Source of the DNA: Cyanobium sp.
GTDB taxonomy: Bacteria > Cyanobacteriota > Cyanobacteriia > PCC-6307 > Cyanobiaceae
Reading direction: 5' to 3'
NCBI GenBank assembly: GCA_014191755.1
Contig: BJHE01000001.1
Span: 1 to 64,000 of the forward strand
Length of the DNA: 64,000 nucleotides
Every line of letters begins with the position of its first letter. Position 1 is the first letter of the stretch. This document shows positions 840-11,357 of this stretch, one piece after another. A model generated the notes under the pieces. That model saw only the letters and a list, made by a program, of their open reading frames with translations. It searched no databases and had not been told where the DNA came from. A program made the position numbers and the translations under genes.

Positions 840-1090
840 CCCAGACACCTCCCCGTGCCAACGAATCGGCAGCCGGCTTTGTGCCCTACGACGTAGCGGA
901 GCACCTCAGAACCCCAGAAGAAATGGCTGCCTATCTGGATGCCTGGCTGGAGGAGGCACCGGATGATGTGGCTGGACTGGCGCGGGCCCTGGGGGACATC
1001 GCCCGAGCCAAGGGAATGACGCAGGTGGCGAAGGAGACCAAGGCACTCCGCCTCAGGCTTCATGCCTGCGCCGCTGTTGTTGAGGGGTAA
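836..1090 (+). CDS. HigA-like addiction-module antitoxin, internally deleted
   Basis: 84 residues. Residues 16-54 match the N-terminus of the 'probable addiction module antidote protein' family (a DVA...TPEEMAAYLDAWLEE stretch, then ALGDIARAKGMTQVAKET). In the family a helix-turn-helix of the type GLSRESLYKAL follows and the protein ends with ALGLRLHA. Here the sequence jumps from KET straight to KALRLRLHA, so about 25 residues covering the recognition helix are missing without a frameshift. No RelE/ParE-type toxin accompanies it. It starts inside the fitB stop (ATGA) and ends 61 bases before pglX. I infer a decayed antitoxin that probably no longer binds DNA specifically. Confidence 0.6.
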   Translation: MTQTPPRANESAAGFVPYDVAEHLRTPEEMAAYLDAWLEEAPDDVAGLARALGDIARAKGMTQVAKETKALRLRLHACAAVVEG

Positions 1091-1151: not shown

Positions 1152-4100
1152 ATGCCCGTCAACACCGCCGCCCTCAAAACCTTCGCCCCGGCGATGCGGC
1201 GGCAACTGCTCGAGGCGGTGGGCCGCAAGCTAGACCTGCTGCTGCACCAGATCAGCGCCGACACGCTGACCACCGCCGCCGGCCCGATCGAGGAGCTGCG
1301 GCAGCAGGAGGCTACCAATCGCCAGGAGCTGCTGGAGCGGGTGGCCTACAGCTGGTTCAATCGCCTGGCGGCGCTGCGCTATCTCGATGCCCGGCTCAGG
1401 CATCCCTTCGGCGCCAAGGTGTTGATGCCGCAGACGGAATCAGAAACCCAGCCCGAGTTGCTGAAACTGCTGCGCAGCGGCAGCCTGCCCGCTGAACTGC
1501 AACCCCACACCGATGAGGCGCGCCTGCAGGGCCTGCTCGATGGCCGGCTACCCACAGCCCAGGCCGGCGCCGATCCCCAGGGGGAGGTGTATCGCGAGCT
1601 GATCCTGGCGGTGTGCCGCTCCTATCACCAGCTGCTGCCGAATCTGTTTGAAGGGCTGGATGATGCCAGCGAGTTGTTGTTACCGGATGATCTGCTGAGT
1701 GATGGCTCGATTGCCGGTGGGTTCCGCCGCCAGATCACCGATGACGATTGCGAGGATGTGGAAATCATCGGCTGGTTGTATCAGTTTTATATCTCCGAAA
1801 AGAAAGACCAGGTGATCGGCAAGGTGGTGAAGTCCGAAGACATTCCGGCCGCCACCCAGCTGTTCACGCCCAACTGGATCGTGAAATACATGGTTCAGAA
1901 TTCGTTGGGGGCCCAGTGGCTGGCCACCTATCCGGCTTCAGCGCTCAAGGGCCAGATGGAGTACTACATCGAGCCCGCTGAGCAAACCGAGGAAGTGAAA
2001 GCGCAGCTGGCGGCGATCACGCCGGAGGCGCTCAACCCCGAAGAACTCACCCTGATCGATCCGGCCTGTGGCTCGGGCCATATTTTAGTGGAAGCCTATG
2101 ACCTATTCAAGGCGATCTATCTGGAGCGCGGCTATCCACAACGGGAGATTCCGCAGCTGATACTGGAGAAGAATCTGTTTGGCCTCGATATCGACGAGCG
2201 AGCCGCCCAGCTGACCAGCTTTGCGCTGATGATGAAAGGTCGGGAGGATGATCGGCGGTTGTTTGAGCGTGGCATCAAGCTCAATGTGATGGGGTTGGTG
2301 AACAGCGATGGGCTGAATGTGGAGGCATTGGCCAATGCCATCAACCTTGCGGACCATGGTCTGAAGCTGGCGGACATTGTGGAGCTGAAACAGCTGTTTG
2401 AACACGCCACCACATTTGGTTCGCTGATTCAGGTGCCTGATGGGTTGGCATTGAAATTGCCTGCGTTGAGGCGGTTGAGTGAGCTGAAGGGGCAGGACAT
2501 GCTTGTGGCGGAGGCATTGAAGATGCTGGAACCGCTGGTGAGCCAGGCTGAGTTGCTGGCGGCGCAGTATGACGCGGTGGTGGCGAATCCTCCGTATATG
2601 GGGAGCAAGAACGGCATGAATACAAGCCTAAAGGAATTTACAAAAACTCACTACCAGCATGCTAAGGGGGATTTATTTGCTTGCTTCTTAGAACGTGGAT
2701 TTTACGCTGCACGCAGCTCAGGACATAGCTCTATGGTAACAATGGAGAGCTGGATGTTTCTTTCTAGCTATGAGAAATTCAGATTTAAATTACTCTGCTC
2801 TCATACCCTCACTAACTTGGCACACTTTCCATATGACGGCAAGCAGCCAACCGTGATGGGAATAAACTTTGGTATTGCTGCAATGACTGCAAAAAAAGCC
2901 CATATTTCAGGCTACCAATGCCAATACTCCTGCTCTAGATACCATGAGCTATCCAAAGACGGCATTCCGAATTCATTCCCAACGCAGAACAAATTCCGAA
3001 ACCACTTGATTACAGACGATTTCACGCAGATACCTGGCTGTCCACTTGTGTATACGATCGGGAATTTTGTCAACCGAGTCTTTGGAGATCTACCAAGGAT
3101 TAAAACAGTAGCCGAAACATGCTCTGGCCTCCAGACAAGTGACAATGCTCGTTTTCTACGCCAATGGCATGAGGTTTCGAGAAAAGATATAACTTTAGGC
3201 GCTAAATCTCGCGAGCAGGCAGCGGCCTCTGGTGGCAAGTGGTTCCCTCATAAAAAAGGGGGCCCATATAGGAAATGGTATGGAAACAATGATTTTGTAC
3301 TAAATTGGGAAAATGATGGCGCAGAGCTGTGGGCATTTGCCAGTGACCTATATGGATCTCCCACAAGAATAATCAAAAATACAGACAGATATTTTCAGCC
3401 GGGCATTACCTGGTCACACACAACCAGCTCGCATTTCAGCGCAAGATCTATGGATGCTGGATTTATCGCGAATGTTGAAGCGCCAGCACTTTACAGCTCT
3501 CAGGACGATATTTTTCTGGCAATTGTAAACTCAAAGCCCATCCAAGCCCTTTTAGAATTAATAAATCCATCCCTTCACTTCATTTCGTCCAGTGTTGCGG
3601 GAATGCCCTATCCACAAAGTGAAGTTACTGAAATAAGTAATGAGCTCAAAGGCGTATCAAGCAGTGCTGTTGATATTGCGCGGACGGACTGGGACCTCTC
3701 TGAGTTGTCCTGGGACTTTTCGCAGCCATGGTGGCAGAAAAGCGACAAAGAAGAGGGTCTTGTCAGGACATGGCAAGCATTCCTCGATTGGTCAAAAACA
3801 GTTGTTGCCAAGATGAGAGAGCTAGAAGAATATAACAATAAGCTAGTGGCTGAAGTGTACCATTTGGCTGATGAATTTCCTCCCGAAGTGCCAATCGAGC
3901 AGATCACCCTCACGGTGAATCCCGCCTACCGCTACGGCGGCAATCTCAGCGAAGACGAGCTCTGGATCCGCTTCCGCCAGGACACGATCAAGGAATTGTT
4001 GTCTTATGCCACCGGCTGCATGATGGGCCGCTACAGCCTCGATCACCCTGGCCTGATCCTCGCCAATGCCAGCGATACGTTGGAGAACTACGCCGCCAAA

Positions 4101-4736
4101 GTCGGCAAAAGCACTGGCGATCTCACCTTCCAACCCGACCGCGACGGCATCATCCCCGTGCTCGATGGCGAGTGGTTTGAAGACGACATCGTCGCCCGCA
4201 GCCGCGAGTTCCTGCGCGTCTCCTTCCCCGCCAGCTCCCTCAACACCGATCTGGCTTTCATCGAAACCGCCCTCGGCAAAGACCTGCGCAAATATTTCTG
4301 CACAGACTTCTACAAAGATCACCTGCAAACCTACAAAAAACGCCCGATCTACTGGCTGGTGCAGAGCTCATCTGGCCCTGCCAAGGGTGGCTTCGCCTGC
4401 CTGATCTACCTGCACCGCTACACCAAAGACACCCTCAACCTCGTTCTCAACAACTACTTCCGCCCCTACCTGCAGAAACTGGAAGCCCGCCAAGCCCAGC
4501 TCGGCCTCGATCAACTCAATGACGCCATCCCCAGCCGCGATCGCACCGCCGCCCGCAAGGAAGCCGATAAAATCACCAAGGTGCTGAAAGAATGCCAGGC
4601 CTGGGAACAGGATTCCCTGCTGCCCCTGGCCCAGCAACGCATCGAGCTCGATCTCGATGATGGGGTGAAGGTGAACTACCTCAAGCTCCAAGACGTGCTG
4701 GCGCCGATTCCGGGGCTGGCGGCGAAGGAGGAGTGA
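1152..4736 (+). CDS. pglX: BREX adenine-specific DNA methyltransferase PglX
   Basis: A 1194-residue protein. It methylates adenine in a non-palindromic site so that the BREX system distinguishes host from phage DNA. ATG 1152 is chosen over ATG 1062 because MPVNTAALKTFAPAMRRQLLE is the typical PglX N-terminus. Visible motifs are the S-adenosylmethionine site DPACGSGH near residue 305 and the catalytic NPPY near residue 480. The region after NPPY, to about residue 910, should hold target recognition. It is clearly richer in A+T than the flanks, while the C-terminal 300 residues return to the local composition. The reading frame is intact. It is first of the visible BREX genes, separated from hipB by 288 bases containing repeats. 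Confidence 0.93.
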   Translation: MPVNTAALKTFAPAMRRQLLEAVGRKLDLLLHQISADTLTTAAGPIEELRQQEATNRQELLERVAYSWFNRLAALRYLDARLRHPFGAKVLMPQTESETQPELLKLLRSGSLPAELQPHTDEARLQGLLDGRLPTAQAGADPQGEVYRELILAVCRSYHQLLPNLFEGLDDASELLLPDDLLSDGSIAGGFRRQITDDDCEDVEIIGWLYQFYISEKKDQVIGKVVKSEDIPAATQLFTPNWIVKYMVQNSLGAQWLATYPASALKGQMEYYIEPAEQTEEVKAQLAAITPEALNPEELTLIDPACGSGHILVEAYDLFKAIYLERGYPQREIPQLILEKNLFGLDIDERAAQLTSFALMMKGREDDRRLFERGIKLNVMGLVNSDGLNVEALANAINLADHGLKLADIVELKQLFEHATTFGSLIQVPDGLALKLPALRRLSELKGQDMLVAEALKMLEPLVSQAELLAAQYDAVVANPPYMGSKNGMNTSLKEFTKTHYQHAKGDLFACFLERGFYAARSSGHSSMVTMESWMFLSSYEKFRFKLLCSHTLTNLAHFPYDGKQPTVMGINFGIAAMTAKKAHISGYQCQYSCSRYHELSKDGIPNSFPTQNKFRNHLITDDFTQIPGCPLVYTIGNFVNRVFGDLPRIKTVAETCSGLQTSDNARFLRQWHEVSRKDITLGAKSREQAAASGGKWFPHKKGGPYRKWYGNNDFVLNWENDGAELWAFASDLYGSPTRIIKNTDRYFQPGITWSHTTSSHFSARSMDAGFIANVEAPALYSSQDDIFLAIVNSKPIQALLELINPSLHFISSSVAGMPYPQSEVTEISNELKGVSSSAVDIARTDWDLSELSWDFSQPWWQKSDKEEGLVRTWQAFLDWSKTVVAKMRELEEYNNKLVAEVYHLADEFPPEVPIEQITLTVNPAYRYGGNLSEDELWIRFRQDTIKELLSYATGCMMGRYSLDHPGLILANASDTLENYAAKVGKSTGDLTFQPDRDGIIPVLDGEWFEDDIVARSREFLRVSFPASSLNTDLAFIETALGKDLRKYFCTDFYKDHLQTYKKRPIYWLVQSSSGPAKGGFACLIYLHRYTKDTLNLVLNNYFRPYLQKLEARQAQLGLDQLNDAIPSRDRTAARKEADKITKVLKECQAWEQDSLLPLAQQRIELDLDDGVKVNYLKLQDVLAPIPGLAAKEE
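2610..3880 (+). other. AT-rich segment inside pglX (putative swapped recognition domain)
   Basis: Composition changes sharply just after the NPPY motif and reverts near 3880. In one 60-base row (3481-3540) I counted 27 G+C, whereas a row in the 3' part (4201-4260) has 39. Codon choice changes too, with many A- or T-ending codons in this segment and almost none in the flanks. The position matches where PglX selects its DNA site. Boundaries are judged by eye to within about 50 bases. Confidence 0.7.
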
Positions 4737-5024: not shown

Positions 5025-5279
5025 ATGGCCTTGGGCGAGCAGGTGATCCAGGCCCCTTCTCAGTTGGGTGTGCTGCTGCGGGGAGCCCGTCGGAAGCGGG
5101 GGATGAGCCAGCAGGAGCTAGCCCTCAAGGCCGGCGGCACCAGTCAGAACCGGCTCTCCGAGCTCGAATTGCAACCGGGGCGCCTCACCGTGGAGCGTCT
5201 CCTGCTGATCCTGGCCGCACTCGACCTCGAACTGGTGGTACGGCCCCGGGAGACCAGTACCAAGCCCGCCGAGTGGTGA
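5025..5279 (+). CDS. hipB: HipB-like XRE-family antitoxin/repressor
   Basis: 84 residues with a single helix-turn-helix at about 14-68 (LGVLLRGARRKRGMSQQELA, then the recognition region around GGTSQNRLSELE). This is the size and layout of HipB, the DNA-binding antitoxin that sequesters the HipA kinase and represses the operon. ATG 5025 lies 9 bases after the last operator box. Its TGA overlaps the hipA start (TGATG), which indicates coupled translation. Its place inside a BREX operon is the unusual point. Confidence 0.85.
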   Translation: MALGEQVIQAPSQLGVLLRGARRKRGMSQQELALKAGGTSQNRLSELELQPGRLTVERLLLILAALDLELVVRPRETSTKPAEW

Positions 5280-6631
5280 TGGGCAGACCAACGCGGACGC
5301 GCTCATTGGCGGTATGGATGAACGGCGAACGGGTTGGCACCTGGATGTTGCCGGCGCGGGGGGCACAGACATTCACTTACGACGAAACCTGGCTGCACTC
5401 CAGCCAGTTCCGCCCGTTGTCGTTGTCACTTCCGACAGGCTTCGGGGCCACAACGCTCAGCGGCAGCGCCGTGGAGAGCTGGTTTGACAACCTCCTCCCC
5501 GACAGCGACGCCATCCGCCGCAGAGCCCAGACCCGTTTTCAAGCCGCCAGCACCAGTGCCTTCGATCTGTTGGCGGCGGTTGGCCGCGATTGTGCCGGCG
5601 CCGTGCAACTGCTGCCGCCGGACCAGGAGCCCAGCGGCTTCGATCGCATCGAGGCCCGGCCTCTGAGCGACAAGGAGATCTGCCGGCGCCTGAGCGCCGT
5701 CACGGCGGCACCGGCTCCAGGATCCCTGGGCCCTGAGTCCGATGAGCTCCGGCTCTCCGTGGCCGGTGCCCAGGAGAAAACCGCCTTCCTCTGGCACAAC
5801 AACCAATGGTGTCTGCCGCTGGGCAGCACCCCCACCACCCACCTCTTCAAGTTGCCGATGGGCGTGATCGGCGAGGGGCAGATTGATTTCAGCTCCTCGG
5901 TGGAGAACGAATGGCTCTGCAGCAAGCTGCTGATGGCCTACGGGCTACCAGTGGCCTCCACGGAGATGGCCCGGTTCAACGGCGAGCGCGGCCTGATCGT
6001 GCAGCGCTTTGACCGCCGCCTGCACCCCAGTGGCACCTACTGGCTGCGCCTGCCAACAGAGGACTGCTGCCAGGCCACCGCCACACCAGCCGCCAACAAA
6101 TACGAAAACAGCGGTGGGCCAGGCATGGTGGCCATTGCCGAGCTGCTGGCTCAATCCTCAGAGCGCAGCGATCTGGCCAATTTCTTCAAAGCACAGGTGT
6201 TGTTCTGGATGTTGCGTGCCATTGATGGTCACGCCAAGAACTTCAGCCTCTTCCTGAATCCAGGCGGTCGTTTTCAGCTCACACCGCTCTACGACGTTCT
6301 CTCAGCATGGCCAGTGATCGGACGTCATAGTGGCCAATGGCCACAACAAAAGCTCAAGATGGCAATGGCCTGGTTTGGTGAGAAAAACAGGTACTACAAG
6401 CCTCTGGAGATCACCAGCCACCGCATGCTGCTCACTGCAAAACGGCTTGGCCTGGGTGACGCCCAACCCATCCTCAACGCGCTGATCGACCAGACGCCAA
6501 CGGTGATTGCTGCGGTGCAAGCCCAGCTACCTGCTGACTTTCCACAAACCATCGCCGAACCGGTGTTCACTGGGTTACAAACCTCCGCCAGCCAGCTTCA
6601 GCGCCAACTTCTTGAGCGCCAACTCCTCTGA
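5279..6631 (+). CDS. hipA: HipA-family serine/threonine kinase toxin
   Basis: 450 residues, normal for HipA. The N-terminal subdomain (LAVWMNGERVGTW, then the FRPLSLSLP region) leads to the activation-loop segment LSVAGAQEKTAF around residue 160. The catalytic motif IDGHAKNFSLFL lies near 317-328 and the metal-binding LTPLYDVLSAW near 336-346, so the kinase core appears intact. Characterised HipA proteins phosphorylate targets such as glutamyl-tRNA synthetase and induce dormancy; the target here is unknown. ATG 5279 overlaps the hipB stop, and its own stop overlaps the pglZ start (TGATG), so it is coupled to BREX genes on one side and to its antitoxin on the other. A longer frame open from 4997 crosses hipB and is not the gene. 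Confidence 0.88.
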   Translation: MGRPTRTRSLAVWMNGERVGTWMLPARGAQTFTYDETWLHSSQFRPLSLSLPTGFGATTLSGSAVESWFDNLLPDSDAIRRRAQTRFQAASTSAFDLLAAVGRDCAGAVQLLPPDQEPSGFDRIEARPLSDKEICRRLSAVTAAPAPGSLGPESDELRLSVAGAQEKTAFLWHNNQWCLPLGSTPTTHLFKLPMGVIGEGQIDFSSSVENEWLCSKLLMAYGLPVASTEMARFNGERGLIVQRFDRRLHPSGTYWLRLPTEDCCQATATPAANKYENSGGPGMVAIAELLAQSSERSDLANFFKAQVLFWMLRAIDGHAKNFSLFLNPGGRFQLTPLYDVLSAWPVIGRHSGQWPQQKLKMAMAWFGEKNRYYKPLEITSHRMLLTAKRLGLGDAQPILNALIDQTPTVIAAVQAQLPADFPQTIAEPVFTGLQTSASQLQRQLLERQLL

Positions 6632-9168
6632 TGCCTGCCTCCCCCGCCGCCACCAGCCGTATCCACGAGAGTCTCGACACCTCTCTGGCACGCAAGCGTG
6701 TCGTGTTCTGGTACGACGCCAATGGTGAGTGGACTTCGGAGTTCGACGACTACGAGCCTGCTCAGGCCGAAAAGCTGCGCGTGCAGGGCAACGAGTTCTC
6801 GGTGAAGGTGGAGATCAGCAGGGCAGCCCTTGACCAGCGCTTCCTCCTCTACCTCCCCTGCCCCAAGCCACCAGAGCCGGATAACTGGCTGCTGGATCTG
6901 TTGCTGGCGGGCCATGAGTTCACGGCCGATCGCGCCTCGCTCGACATCCAGGAGGCGGGACTGACCCTGGAGTTCAAGGAACTGGCCCAGCAACACAAGG
7001 CCTTTTTCCGCTCGCCGGTGCGCACCACCAAGCTCAAGGAGCTGCTGCGCCCCAACGACGACGAGGGCGCCGTGCGGCTCAAGATGTTGGCGGTCCTGGC
7101 CAAGCAGCAAGCCGACATCGACAAACTGCTGCTTCATGCCTTCAGCCAGCTGGACCCGGCCAACCCCGATGGCGATGACCCGGTGGAAGCCCTCTACGGA
7201 AACCACCAGCTGAGCAGTCATTTTTGGCGGGCGGTTGGCGAGAAGTTCGGCTACACCAGCCCGGAGCCCAACCTGCGCGACTTCGCCGTTGCCCTGTTCA
7301 ACAGCGTGAGCAGCATCGGTCCTTCTGGGGAGCTGCTGCCCCACGCTCGGGTGTTCCTGAGCATCTGGAAAGACAGCCTCAGCTCACGGCCGGCCTTTGA
7401 GCAGTGGAGTGATCACCTGGCTGGGGTGCTGCGGGTTGAGCACCAGCTCAACGACGCGCCAGACACCTACGACCCAGACGACGACGACAGCTACGAGCTG
7501 ATCGAGCGTTTTGTGCTCAGCCGCCTGCTGCAACGCTTCCAGGGCGACGCCTCAGACACCCAGCTGTTGGAGACGATCCGCAACCGCAGCAGCTCCTGCT
7601 GGTTCGAGAAGCACCAATACGGCTATAGCGCCCTGGAGCAGGCGATCACCTTCCGGGGCTTGCTGGCCAAGGCCGATCTGCAGGTGCCCAGCTTCGAGGA
7701 GGGGCTGCAGCGTTACTGCAACGGCTGGTGGCGCCTGGATCAGGCCTACCGCCGCTGCATCTTCCACGCCCGCACCTACCAACAGCCTGGGCTGCTCAAG
7801 CCACTGCGCGACTGGTTGGAGGCTCAGTACGTCAACAATGTGTTGCTGCCCCTCACCAACCGCTGGAGCGATCAGGTGGCTGACCTCAGCAGCTGGGGAT
7901 CGAGCACCCTGCCGCGGCAGAAGGAGTTCCACATGCGCTACGTGCATGCGCCGCTCTCCTCAAAGGGCCTCAAGCGCCTGTTCGTGGTGATCTCGGATGC
8001 GCTGCGCTACGAGGCCGCCCGCGATTTCGCTGATCGCCTCAACAATCAGGCCGGCAAGGGTTGGCAGGCCGAAGTGGATGCCCTGTTGGGGGTGCTGCCC
8101 AGCTTCACCCAGCTGGGGATGGCAGTTCTGCTGCCCGGTGCGCAGCCGAGCCTCAACTCCAGCGATGCCACGGCCCTGGTGGATGGTCAGAGCGCCACCG
8201 GCACCGACAACCGCGACAAGATTCTCAAGGCCTATGCCAATGGCCGCGCCACGGCGATCCTGGCGGAAGATTTCCTTGGCCTCGCCACAAGCAAGGAGGG
8301 TGCCGAACTCACCAAAGATCACGACCTGATCGTGATTTTCCACAACCGCATCGACCGGATCGGCGACAAGCGCGAGAGCGAAGCTGAGATCTGCCAGGCG
8401 GTGGAGCAGACCTTCGACGACCTGGAGCAGATCCTGCGCAAGATCGCCAGCCTCAAGGGCAGCCAGGTTGTGATCACCGCCGATCACGGCTTCCTGTTCC
8501 AGCAGGAGCCAGTGGATGCCAACGACCGTGCTCAGTTCCCTACGGCCAAGGAGCTCAGCTTCAAAAACCGGCGCTTTGCCTTGGGCACGGGCATCAAGGC
8601 CAGTGCCGGGCAAAAGGTATTCACAGCTGATGAGCTGGGGCTCTCCGGCAACTGGGAGGCCGTCTTCCCCCTGGGGCTGGATCGCTTCCCCCGTTCAGGC
8701 TCGGGCTCACGCTTCGTGCATGGCGGCACCTCCCTGCAGGAGGTGGTGGTGCCGGTGATCCGGCTCAAGCGCGAACGGAAGGACGAGAGCCGGGTGGTGG
8801 AAGCCGAGCTGCTGCGGGTGCCCGCCAAGATCACCATGGGCAAGCTGACATTTGGTCTGTTCCAGCTGGAGCCGGTGGAGCCCAAAAAGCGCCTGCCCTT
8901 GCAGCTGCGCATCGGCCTCTACGCCAAGGCTGATGGCGCCCTGCTTTGTGCGCACCGCAACGTGTTGCTGGATTCCGCGGCCAGCGAGGCTCGCGAGCGG
9001 GAGCAGCAGGTGGTCCTGGAGCTTTCCAACGCTGCCGGCGACTACAACAACCAGACCCTGGAGCTCCGCCTGGAGCGGCAGTTGGAGGGTGTCGCCAAGC
9101 CGGTGCCCTACAAGACTGTGGAGCTAAAGCTGCAGCGGCCCTTCGGCAGCGACTTCGACGACTTCTGA
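6631..9168 (+). CDS. pglZ: BREX alkaline-phosphatase-superfamily protein PglZ
   Basis: 845 residues, standard for BREX PglZ. The N-terminal part (VVFWYDANGEWTSEF) is characteristic of the family. The phosphatase-like core has a metal-binding Asp in LFVVISDALRYEAA near residue 450 and the ITADHGFLFQQ motif near 615. PglZ is essential for BREX protection; it acts with PglX, though its exact biochemical activity is not settled. ATG 6631 shares a base with the hipA stop and the brxL start follows 8 bases after its stop, so all three are probably one transcript. Confidence 0.93.
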   Translation: MPASPAATSRIHESLDTSLARKRVVFWYDANGEWTSEFDDYEPAQAEKLRVQGNEFSVKVEISRAALDQRFLLYLPCPKPPEPDNWLLDLLLAGHEFTADRASLDIQEAGLTLEFKELAQQHKAFFRSPVRTTKLKELLRPNDDEGAVRLKMLAVLAKQQADIDKLLLHAFSQLDPANPDGDDPVEALYGNHQLSSHFWRAVGEKFGYTSPEPNLRDFAVALFNSVSSIGPSGELLPHARVFLSIWKDSLSSRPAFEQWSDHLAGVLRVEHQLNDAPDTYDPDDDDSYELIERFVLSRLLQRFQGDASDTQLLETIRNRSSSCWFEKHQYGYSALEQAITFRGLLAKADLQVPSFEEGLQRYCNGWWRLDQAYRRCIFHARTYQQPGLLKPLRDWLEAQYVNNVLLPLTNRWSDQVADLSSWGSSTLPRQKEFHMRYVHAPLSSKGLKRLFVVISDALRYEAARDFADRLNNQAGKGWQAEVDALLGVLPSFTQLGMAVLLPGAQPSLNSSDATALVDGQSATGTDNRDKILKAYANGRATAILAEDFLGLATSKEGAELTKDHDLIVIFHNRIDRIGDKRESEAEICQAVEQTFDDLEQILRKIASLKGSQVVITADHGFLFQQEPVDANDRAQFPTAKELSFKNRRFALGTGIKASAGQKVFTADELGLSGNWEAVFPLGLDRFPRSGSGSRFVHGGTSLQEVVVPVIRLKRERKDESRVVEAELLRVPAKITMGKLTFGLFQLEPVEPKKRLPLQLRIGLYAKADGALLCAHRNVLLDSAASEAREREQQVVLELSNAAGDYNNQTLELRLERQLEGVAKPVPYKTVELKLQRPFGSDFDDF

Positions 9169-9176
9169 TCCCCCCC

Positions 9177-11357
9177 ATGGTCACCAGCGCTGCCCCTCCG
9201 GCCCAAAGTCCCCTGGATCAGAAGATCCTTGAGCACTTCCCTGGCCTGGTGGTCCGCAAGGACCTCACCACGGAGCTCAAGCAAAACGCGGTGGTGCCCA
9301 CTTACGTGCTCGAGTACCTGCTCGGGCAGCACTGCGCCACTGACGATCCAGCTCTGATCAGCGAAGGGCTGGAGTCGGTGCGGCGGATCCTCGCCAAGCA
9401 CTACGTGCACCGCAACCAGGCGGAGCTGGTGAAATCCACGATCAAGGAGCGCGGCACTCACAAGGTGATCGACAAGCTCACGGTGGAGCTCAACGACAAG
9501 GGTGGCTTCTACGAGGTGGAGTTCACCAATCTCGGGCTGAAGAAGGTGCCGATTGATGTGGACTTCGTGAAGCGCTACCCCAAGCTGCTGGTGGGTGGCA
9601 TTTGGGCGATCACCGATGTGGAGTACGAGCTCCCCGCCGACCCCAAGGCCAGCCCTTGGCAGATCTCATCGGTCAAGCCGATCCAGGTGGCCGGCGTCGA
9701 CCACGACGAGTTCCTCAAAGCCCGGGCGCAGTTCACCACTGACGAGTGGATGGACGTGCTCATGCAGAGCGTGGGTTTCAATCCCGAACCCTTCACCCGC
9801 CGGGGCAAGCTGCTCACCCTGATCCGGCTAATCCCCTTCTGCGAGCGCAACTACAACCTGCTGGAGCTGGGCCCAAAGGGCACGGGTAAATCCCACGTGT
9901 ACGCCGAGTTCTCGCCCCACGGCATGTTGATCTCAGGCTCGGAGGTCACCGCCCCGAAGCTGTTTGTGAGCAACGCCAACGGCAAGATCGGCCTGGTGGG
10001 CTATTGGGACTGCATCTGCTTCGACGAGTTCGCCGGTAAGGACAAGAAGGTCGACAAGACGCTGGTCGACATCATGAAAAACTACATGGCCAACCGCACC
10101 TTTTCGCGGGGCATCGAGCAGCTCACCGCCGAGGCCTCGATGGTGTTCATGGGCAACACCCAGAAGTCGGTTGCCTACATGCTCAAGCACTCCCACTTCT
10201 ACGAGCCGCTGCCCGACAAGTACATCGATTCGGCCTTCCTCGATCGGATCCATGCCTTCAATCCCGGCTGGGAGGTACAGCCGGTGCGCCATGAGCTCTT
10301 CTGCACCGGCTACGGCTTCGTGGTGGATTACATCGCTGAAGTGCTCAAGCACCTGCGCACCGAGGATTACACCGGCCTCTACAAGCCCCACTTCGAGATC
10401 AGCTCGGAGGTCTCGACCCGTGATCAGACGGGCTTTGAGAAGACCTTCTCGGGCCTGATGAAGATCCTCCATCCCAATGGCAAGGCAACACCTGAGGAGA
10501 TTGCAGAACTACTGGGGTTCTCGATGGAGTGCCGCCGGCGAGTTCGGGAGCAGATCCTGCGCATCGACGACACCTTCAAGGCCAACGACTTCGCCTACCG
10601 GCCCCTAACCGGTGGTGATGCAGTCACCGTGCTAACGCCTGAGGAGCAACAGTACCCAGCGTTTGCGGGACTGCGCCCCCTCAGCAGCGAAGCGCAACCC
10701 GCTGCAGTGGAAGGTCCCGCAGTAGCAGCCGAGCCCTCAGTGGGACAAGCCACCAAGGCCGCAGGCAAGGTCCAAGCCGCTGCACCTGCTGAGTCAGTGG
10801 CCCCTGCTGCTGTAGAAGTCAATGTTGGCTCGTCAGCCAGTAAGCAGCCGCCTGCCATCGCCGCCCAACTCAAGGAACAGCATCTGGTGGTCCCGGAAAA
10901 TGCCAAGGGCTGGAGCTACCGCCGCCTGTTTGCAGACTATCTCCAGGGCTGCAGCGGCATCATCATCCGCGACCCCTACATCCGGGCTTTCCATCAGGTC
11001 CGCAACCTGGTCGAATTCCTGCGCATGGTGAATGAGATCACCCCCATAGGCGATGAGGTGACCGTGCATCTCATCACCGGCTCCGACCAGGAGACGATGG
11101 AGAAACAGGTCGAGAATCTCGGCCAGGTGCAAGATTCATTCGCTGGCACCAGTACCCCTTTCACTTGGGAAATCGATGCCAGCCCCAATTTCCACGCCCG
11201 CAGCATCTCCACAGACCACGGCTGGAAGATCAGCCTCGATCGGGGCTTGGACTTCTTCCAATGGTTTGAGTTCTCCCCCTTCAATGCCGCTGCGGTGATG
11301 CAGGAAGCCCGGATGGTGAAGGGCTGTGAGGTGAATTACATCAAGACGAGCGCTTGA
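9177..11357 (+). CDS. brxL: BrxL-type BREX AAA+ protein with MITD1-like C-terminal domain
   Basis: 726 residues. Residues 1-490 match BrxL: a VVPTYVLEYLLGQHC stretch, KSTIKERGTHKVIDK, Walker A GPKGTGKS near 232-239, Walker B CICFDEF near 280, and FMGNTQKSVAYML as sensor region. Residues about 498-565 are an Ala/Pro/Gln-rich linker. The last 160 residues are not the Lon-like protease domain of BREX-1 BrxL. They contain YRRLFADYLQ, IIIRDPYIRAFHQ, then HARSISTDHGWKISLDRGLD and a short strand before the end. This resembles the phospholipase-D-like C-terminal domain of eukaryotic MITD1, which has IEDPYIRHTHQ and NNGWMIKIGRGLDYF at equivalent places. ATG 9177 is chosen because it follows the pglZ stop and gives the normal N-terminus. 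Confidence 0.88.
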   Translation: MVTSAAPPAQSPLDQKILEHFPGLVVRKDLTTELKQNAVVPTYVLEYLLGQHCATDDPALISEGLESVRRILAKHYVHRNQAELVKSTIKERGTHKVIDKLTVELNDKGGFYEVEFTNLGLKKVPIDVDFVKRYPKLLVGGIWAITDVEYELPADPKASPWQISSVKPIQVAGVDHDEFLKARAQFTTDEWMDVLMQSVGFNPEPFTRRGKLLTLIRLIPFCERNYNLLELGPKGTGKSHVYAEFSPHGMLISGSEVTAPKLFVSNANGKIGLVGYWDCICFDEFAGKDKKVDKTLVDIMKNYMANRTFSRGIEQLTAEASMVFMGNTQKSVAYMLKHSHFYEPLPDKYIDSAFLDRIHAFNPGWEVQPVRHELFCTGYGFVVDYIAEVLKHLRTEDYTGLYKPHFEISSEVSTRDQTGFEKTFSGLMKILHPNGKATPEEIAELLGFSMECRRRVREQILRIDDTFKANDFAYRPLTGGDAVTVLTPEEQQYPAFAGLRPLSSEAQPAAVEGPAVAAEPSVGQATKAAGKVQAAAPAESVAPAAVEVNVGSSASKQPPAIAAQLKEQHLVVPENAKGWSYRRLFADYLQGCSGIIIRDPYIRAFHQVRNLVEFLRMVNEITPIGDEVTVHLITGSDQETMEKQVENLGQVQDSFAGTSTPFTWEIDASPNFHARSISTDHGWKISLDRGLDFFQWFEFSPFNAAAVMQEARMVKGCEVNYIKTSA

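Follow-up and report, generated by a model that had tools for sequence, protein, structure and literature searches.

Probable replacement of the target-recognition core of a BREX methyltransferase gene, pglX, by recombination in Cyanobium sp.

Can the part of a defence enzyme that reads its target be exchanged while the rest of the enzyme stays in place? The question is raised by pglX (brxX), the adenine methyltransferase gene of a type 1 bacteriophage exclusion (BREX) locus in Cyanobium sp., found within the 64,000-nucleotide stretch analysed here (the window). The window opens contig 1 of a 3.5-Mb draft genome split into 220 contigs (91.5% complete, 1.75% contaminated). A sequence-only reading of this DNA had noticed an AT-rich segment in the gene and proposed that the target recognition domain (TRD) had been replaced by recombination. 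Our comparisons support recombination, but of a piece that extends beyond the TRD: a tract at about 2607–3881 very probably entered a resident cyanobacterial pglX by allelic recombination.

The product matches the PADLOC PglX profile over residues 4–1189 (E = 0, 1250 bits) and the solved structures 8c45 and 9ewz (PDB; E about 1e-244), and this full-length match to both PglX profiles and solved BrxX identifies it as a BREX type 1 PglX/BrxX. The start at 1152 is favoured over 1062, because homology in relatives begins at 1147–1150. Both gamma-class motifs are present, i.e., DPACGSGH (residues 303–310), which binds S-adenosylmethionine (SAM), and the catalytic NPPY (residues 479–482); their residues are almost all invariant across 40 homologues, and the positions invariant among these homologues are all retained here.

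Along the gene, a two-level maximum-likelihood fit of G+C content (GC) delimits a tract at 2616–3878, with a GC of 0.442 inside and 0.599 outside, beginning about four residues past NPPY. GC at third codon positions (GC3) is 0.43 in the tract vs. 0.77–0.80 in the flanks, and the best GC3 segment (2619–3893) improves the log-likelihood by 74, whereas shuffling the codon order 500 times never improves it by more than 12 (Fisher p = 1.9e-32). With the 64 kb window and the neighbouring genes as yardstick, the tract is the lowest-GC stretch of its size (0.444; next lowest elsewhere 0.563; z = −6.9), and its codon-preference index relative to neighbouring genes is 0.28, compared with 0.51–0.68 in the flanks and 0.58–0.73 in reference genes. 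The sequence-only reading was thus right within a few bases about the limits of the segment (2610–3880), as well as about its place between NPPY and the C-terminal region, its distinct codon preference and its uninterrupted frame, which is open from the start codon to the stop at 4734–4736.

The replacement itself is supported by comparison with relatives (one genome per species), not by composition. In blastn searches, six Cyanobiaceae relatives (loci L134, L135, L136, L138, L014 and L043) match the window from about 1149 (1030 in two of them) to 2602–2620 and again from 3870–3882, at about 78–94% nucleotide identity, while a contig fragment (L148) matches from 3880 at 92%. Between these limits, the sole nucleotide match in these relatives is a 98-base piece at 72% in L138, so that the conserved flanks and divergent centre expected by the earlier reading are found, rather than the same segment at uniform divergence. 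The nucleotide match drops out within about 10 bases at both junctions, where exact matches to relatives are short. Other relatives (L139, L141, L142, L144 and L016–L022) retain the outer parts only, to about 1880–2290 and from about 4002–4014. We label the two groups class A and class B, from identity over the mid part of the protein (the first half of the methyltransferase domain): the former is 82–92% identical to the window protein in residues 274–486 and about 28–33% in residues 487–909, and the latter mostly about 40% already in residues 274–486. Among 19 Cyanobiaceae genes, pairwise left breakpoints fall at residues 244–280 or 482–490, with a smaller group near 354–378, and right breakpoints at 835–851 or 949–955, with smaller groups between and beyond; the right junction of the window (907–911) is unlike the usual 835–851.

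Event-specific evidence comes from the helical spacer that follows the TRD. Its residues 851–906 are mostly 57–97% identical among class-A cyanobacteria and 55–81% identical to other phyla, with one class-A exception (L011, 37–46%), whereas the window spacer is only 30–38% identical to all sequences compared. Likewise, its GC3 is 0.52, against mostly 0.72–0.81 in class-A relatives (0.57 in L014 and 0.63 in L011). A foreign version of a conserved spacer implies that the replaced piece runs to 3881 and so exceeds the block that is usually hypervariable. This argues against a variable domain having drifted, and it fixes the right junction without recourse to composition.

Phylogenetic trees (quick method, LG+G4, 38 rows), complemented by approximately unbiased (AU) tests of cyanobacterial monophyly, differ between modules. 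In the tree of the N-terminal and C-terminal domains (NTD and CTD), all cyanobacterial rows form one clade (support 100), with the window beside the class-B genes L013 and L015. In the tree of residues 225–480, the window falls among class-A genes, and the AU test rejects a single cyanobacterial clade (p = 2.3e-5); here, the class-A test is not independent, since the labels come from mid-part identity, but the cyanobacterial grouping is. Finally, the tree of residues 492–900 rejects cyanobacterial monophyly still more strongly (p = 1.5e-31), its nearest row being L104, at 45% identity. Sharp junctions between conserved flanks and an unrelated centre, and conflicting trees for module and flanks, two signs of replacement by recombination, are therefore both present. 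The trees group the ends of pglX with cyanobacteria, which led us to reject a transfer of the whole locus.

The strong conflict among the trees of the ends, of the methyltransferase first half and of the centre means that PglX is layered, with lineage-bound, co-inherited ends, a methyltransferase half common to several phyla and a free-moving recognition core; the methyltransferase first half is itself an exchangeable outer layer. In 40-residue windows, the NTD is 10–52% identical to L046 and L050 (Pseudomonadota and Thermodesulfobacteriota) and mostly 62–100% identical to Cyanobiaceae, while some genes of Pseudomonadota, Thermodesulfobacteriota, Planctomycetota and Verrucomicrobiota reach 72–78% in residues 274–486 (about 60% in the verrucomicrobial L100), with ends mostly at 42–50%. 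Across 79 sequences, pairwise identities correlate at r = 0.93 between NTD and CTD and at 0.70 between the spacer and the segment that follows it; TRD identity is uncorrelated with that of NTD, mid part or CTD (r about 0.00) and correlates at 0.20 with that of the adjoining methyltransferase half. In the open-access literature on mosaic or recombinant pglX, to which the search was confined, we came across no account of this layering. Two full-length PglX genes occur in some cyanobacterial genomes (G137, with L040 and L041; G250, with L042 and L104), and the G250 pair combines one class-A with one class-B methyltransferase half.

At face value, the AT-richness of the tract might be read as the signature of an AT-rich donor, and the sequence-only reading took the pattern as a sign of replacement. 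The dip is real, but it is weak evidence alone, because it is general for this module, and we rejected composition as sole evidence for replacement. At four-fold sites, each of the 86 full-length PglX homologues has a centre poorer in GC than its ends (mean 0.45 vs. 0.74; 0.38 vs. 0.93 in the window gene). In the 58 loci with pglZ, the PglX centre averages about −0.27 relative to the ends and lies below pglZ in 57, and no middle dip appears along pglZ. The dip is found in several phyla, in nearly every PglX outside cyanobacteria and in low-GC hosts; against host GC3, GC3 has a slope of 0.57 for the centre, which thus tracks its host only partially, and of 0.90 for the mid part. There is an even chance, in our estimation, that the dip is an intrinsic or long-standing trait of PglX recognition modules and not the mark of one donor, which would be compatible with replacement. 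On the other side, the window dip extends over the spacer, where most class-A relatives keep a high GC3, and the GC3 gap of the window gene is among the six largest of the 86. Tentatively, the shell (NTD and CTD) may take methyltransferase halves and cores from a cross-phylum pool of which synonymous AT-richness is a lasting mark; candidate causes would be that cores seldom pair homologously and escape GC-biased conversion, or that they pass repeatedly through AT-rich mobile DNA.

Without any recombination, the TRD might have diverged in place under diversifying selection and drifted to AT by fast evolution under AT-biased mutation. This we consider very improbable: the nucleotide match breaks abruptly at both junctions, a spacer otherwise conserved between cyanobacteria and several phyla is here unrelated and AT-rich, and the modules conflict in their trees. 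Moreover, genes from two alphaproteobacterial orders (L083, Salipiger; L086, Rhabdaerophilum) have near-identical centres (95–98% protein identity) on more divergent ends (67–76%), apparently after a recent exchange of the same module.

Less probable still is that the assembly fused two pglX alleles of a mixed sample into a chimera. The fragmented, incomplete and slightly contaminated draft would allow for it, as would decayed pglX relics on two other contigs, but it requires two independent in-frame false joins, the exact matches at the joins are short, junctions of these kinds recur in independent genomes, and the relics lack any centre. These two BREX relics (contigs 104 and 135; L038 6317–8909 and L039 3955–5593), 97% alike over 2.6 kb, consist of a pglX N-terminal part with stops, fused to brxL remnants; as this part alone is retained, they were also rejected as a source of the centre. 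Least probable of all is a programmed switch, in which invertible or shufflon-type cassettes exchange TRDs within the cell, for while pglX phase variation is reported to be common elsewhere (PMC11341690), the junctions have neither inverted nor direct repeats, pglX contains no simple repeat and the assembly holds no second centre.

Several points nevertheless weigh against replacement as we propose it. The AT-rich dip marks the module, hence composition is no proof of recent arrival. The genome search, limited to one genome per species, affords no strain-level comparison. Searches of plasmids, viral contigs and genomes at family (400), order (399) and phylum (386) level yielded no donor for the centre closer than about 45%; the best plasmid and viral matches are at 42% (Acinetobacter) and 33%, respectively. 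By sub-block, the best matches are 58% for the methyltransferase half (L046), 53% for the TRD (L104) and 41% for the spacer, so that the incoming piece may be composite. Finally, the contig ends just upstream of pglX, at window base 1, and brxC, the one gene of brxA, brxB and brxC that was searched for, went undetected in an assembly 91.5% complete, so that activity of the BREX locus can only be presumed.

An AlphaFold2 model (40-sequence alignment; predicted local distance difference test score 85.9, predicted template modelling score 0.73) has the PglX fold, aligning with Salmonella PglX (8q56) at Z 45.5 over 1134 residues. In this model, the left junction lies in a loop between the NPPY strand and helix 491–500, and the right one in a loop past the second of the spacer helices (822–850 and 870–902). 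Under replacement by recombination, which was probably homologous, the left crossover would have occurred just past the conserved NPPYMG codons and the right one within the conserved PEVPIEQITL codons following the spacer helices. The incoming piece would supply everything that reads the target, i.e., the loop of the methyltransferase domain reading base 6, the whole TRD and the spacer, while the NTD and CTD, thought to dock on other BREX proteins, and the SAM-binding half would remain resident. The chimera, presumably active, would keep the same BREX machinery and both methylate and exclude phage at a different 6-bp site.

Judging from sequence, the methylated and restricted site has probably changed relative to the relatives. 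At the positions aligned (9ewz) to E. coli K681, D684, R751, Q784, G785 and N823, the window has S, Q, K, V, E and H (SQKVEH), and none of six class-A cyanobacterial relatives has the same set (KARTVH, QTKDSH, GKITKS, ETRSTD, KTDNAH and QVFDAN). L104, the middle of which is class-B (42% identical), agrees with the window at all six, so that one TRD type appears to sit on two backbones; L104 is the nearest predicted specificity match, and a common motif is predicted. A His at Salmonella position 838 has been reported with a G preceding the modified A (PMC11341690), and H809 at the equivalent position here tentatively suggests the motif xxxGAx.

Around pglX (Table 1), pglZ and brxL lie in one locus with it, as expected of BREX type 1, in the order pglX, hipBA, pglZ, brxL; in relatives, small genes separate pglX from brxC, which precedes it on the same strand. 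Cargo between pglX and pglZ varies, with AlbA_2/HATPase_c_4 (Schlafen/RecG-like) genes in G286 (L141 4550–7610) instead of hipBA. Upstream of pglX, a VapBC/FitAB-like pair (179–839) with a PIN domain toxin (402–839) is 98–99% identical to the loci of G268 and G286 (L140 and L141), whereas the adjoining start of pglX is only about 88–92% identical to them. The intervening antitoxin-like gene (836–1090), which we take to be HigA-like, is 78 bp (26 codons, in frame) shorter than in L140 and L141 and may be inactive; blastn gives the same 78-bp offset in L149 and L059, and the missing piece ends at a GACC repeat.

Table 1. Coordinates of pglX, its modules and the other genes of the locus in the window.
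Feature	Coordinates	Strand	Residues	Remarks
pglX/brxX	1152..4736	+	1–1194	BREX type 1 adenine methyltransferase and specificity factor, 1194 aa; stop at 4734–4736
N-terminal domain	1152..1751	+	1–200	Lineage-bound outer shell
First half of methyltransferase domain	1824..2606	+	225–485	Class-A layer with DPACGSGH and NPPY; cross-phylum
Replaced AT-rich tract (probable)	2607..3881	+	about 487–909	Second half of methyltransferase domain, whole TRD, helical spacer; relatives' alignment ends at 2602–2620 and resumes at 3870–3882; GC fit 2616–3878
Target recognition domain	3027..3617	+	626–822	E. coli BrxX 651–837; 9ewz alignment, limits from PMC11842806
Helical spacer	3687..3878	+	846–909	Foreign only here among class-A relatives (L011 partly)
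Class-A segment after tract	3879..4001	+	910–950	73–95% to class-A; class-B align from 4002
C-terminal domain	4002..4733	+	951–1194	Lineage-bound outer shell; 95% nucleotide identity to class-B L013
hipB and hipA-like toxin-antitoxin pair	5025..6631	+		Within BREX locus; Pfam HTH_3, Couple_hipA, HipA_C
pglZ	6631..9168	+		Pfam PglZ, PADLOC PglZ
brxL	9177..11357	+		Pfam BrxL_N, BrxL_ATPase; PADLOC BrxL

A one-chain defence enzyme could thus be retargeted with its partners kept, by exchanging the parts that read DNA and retaining those presumed to dock. The junctions found in nature, one behind NPPYMG and the other behind the spacer helices, offer cut points tried by evolution for BREX enzymes of new specificity, a published single-loop swap having abolished defence (PMC11842806), and the synonymous AT-richness of the core provides a simple marker for exchanged modules. 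Among known systems, E. coli HS BrxX and Salmonella PglX (9ewz, 8c45, 8q56) share the full-length fold, the domain order, the SAM and NPPY motifs and the metal-site aspartates at 37–40% identity, but all five E. coli base-reading residues (K681, D684, R751, Q784 and N823) differ here (S, Q, K, V and H), which is why a different site is predicted. A local divergence of pglX in the recognition part was likewise seen between the BREX loci of E. coli HS and Salmonella StySA, and ascribed to the TRD (PMC9009780); that comparison reports an alignment, to which the present case adds the junctions, the conflict between trees and a spacer replacement specific to this event. TRD exchange and domain movement in the Type I S and Type III M genes of Helicobacter pylori (PMC3983042) are likewise allelic swaps at conserved flanks; motifs were altered there, whereas the motif change is predicted here, in a one-chain BREX enzyme where the block includes half of the catalytic domain and the nested layers differ in reach. 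Finally, MmeI and the Type IIL enzymes (5hr4) share the methyltransferase–TRD architecture (Z 21.8), but the window PglX has no nuclease and carries an extra NTD and CTD tied to BREX.
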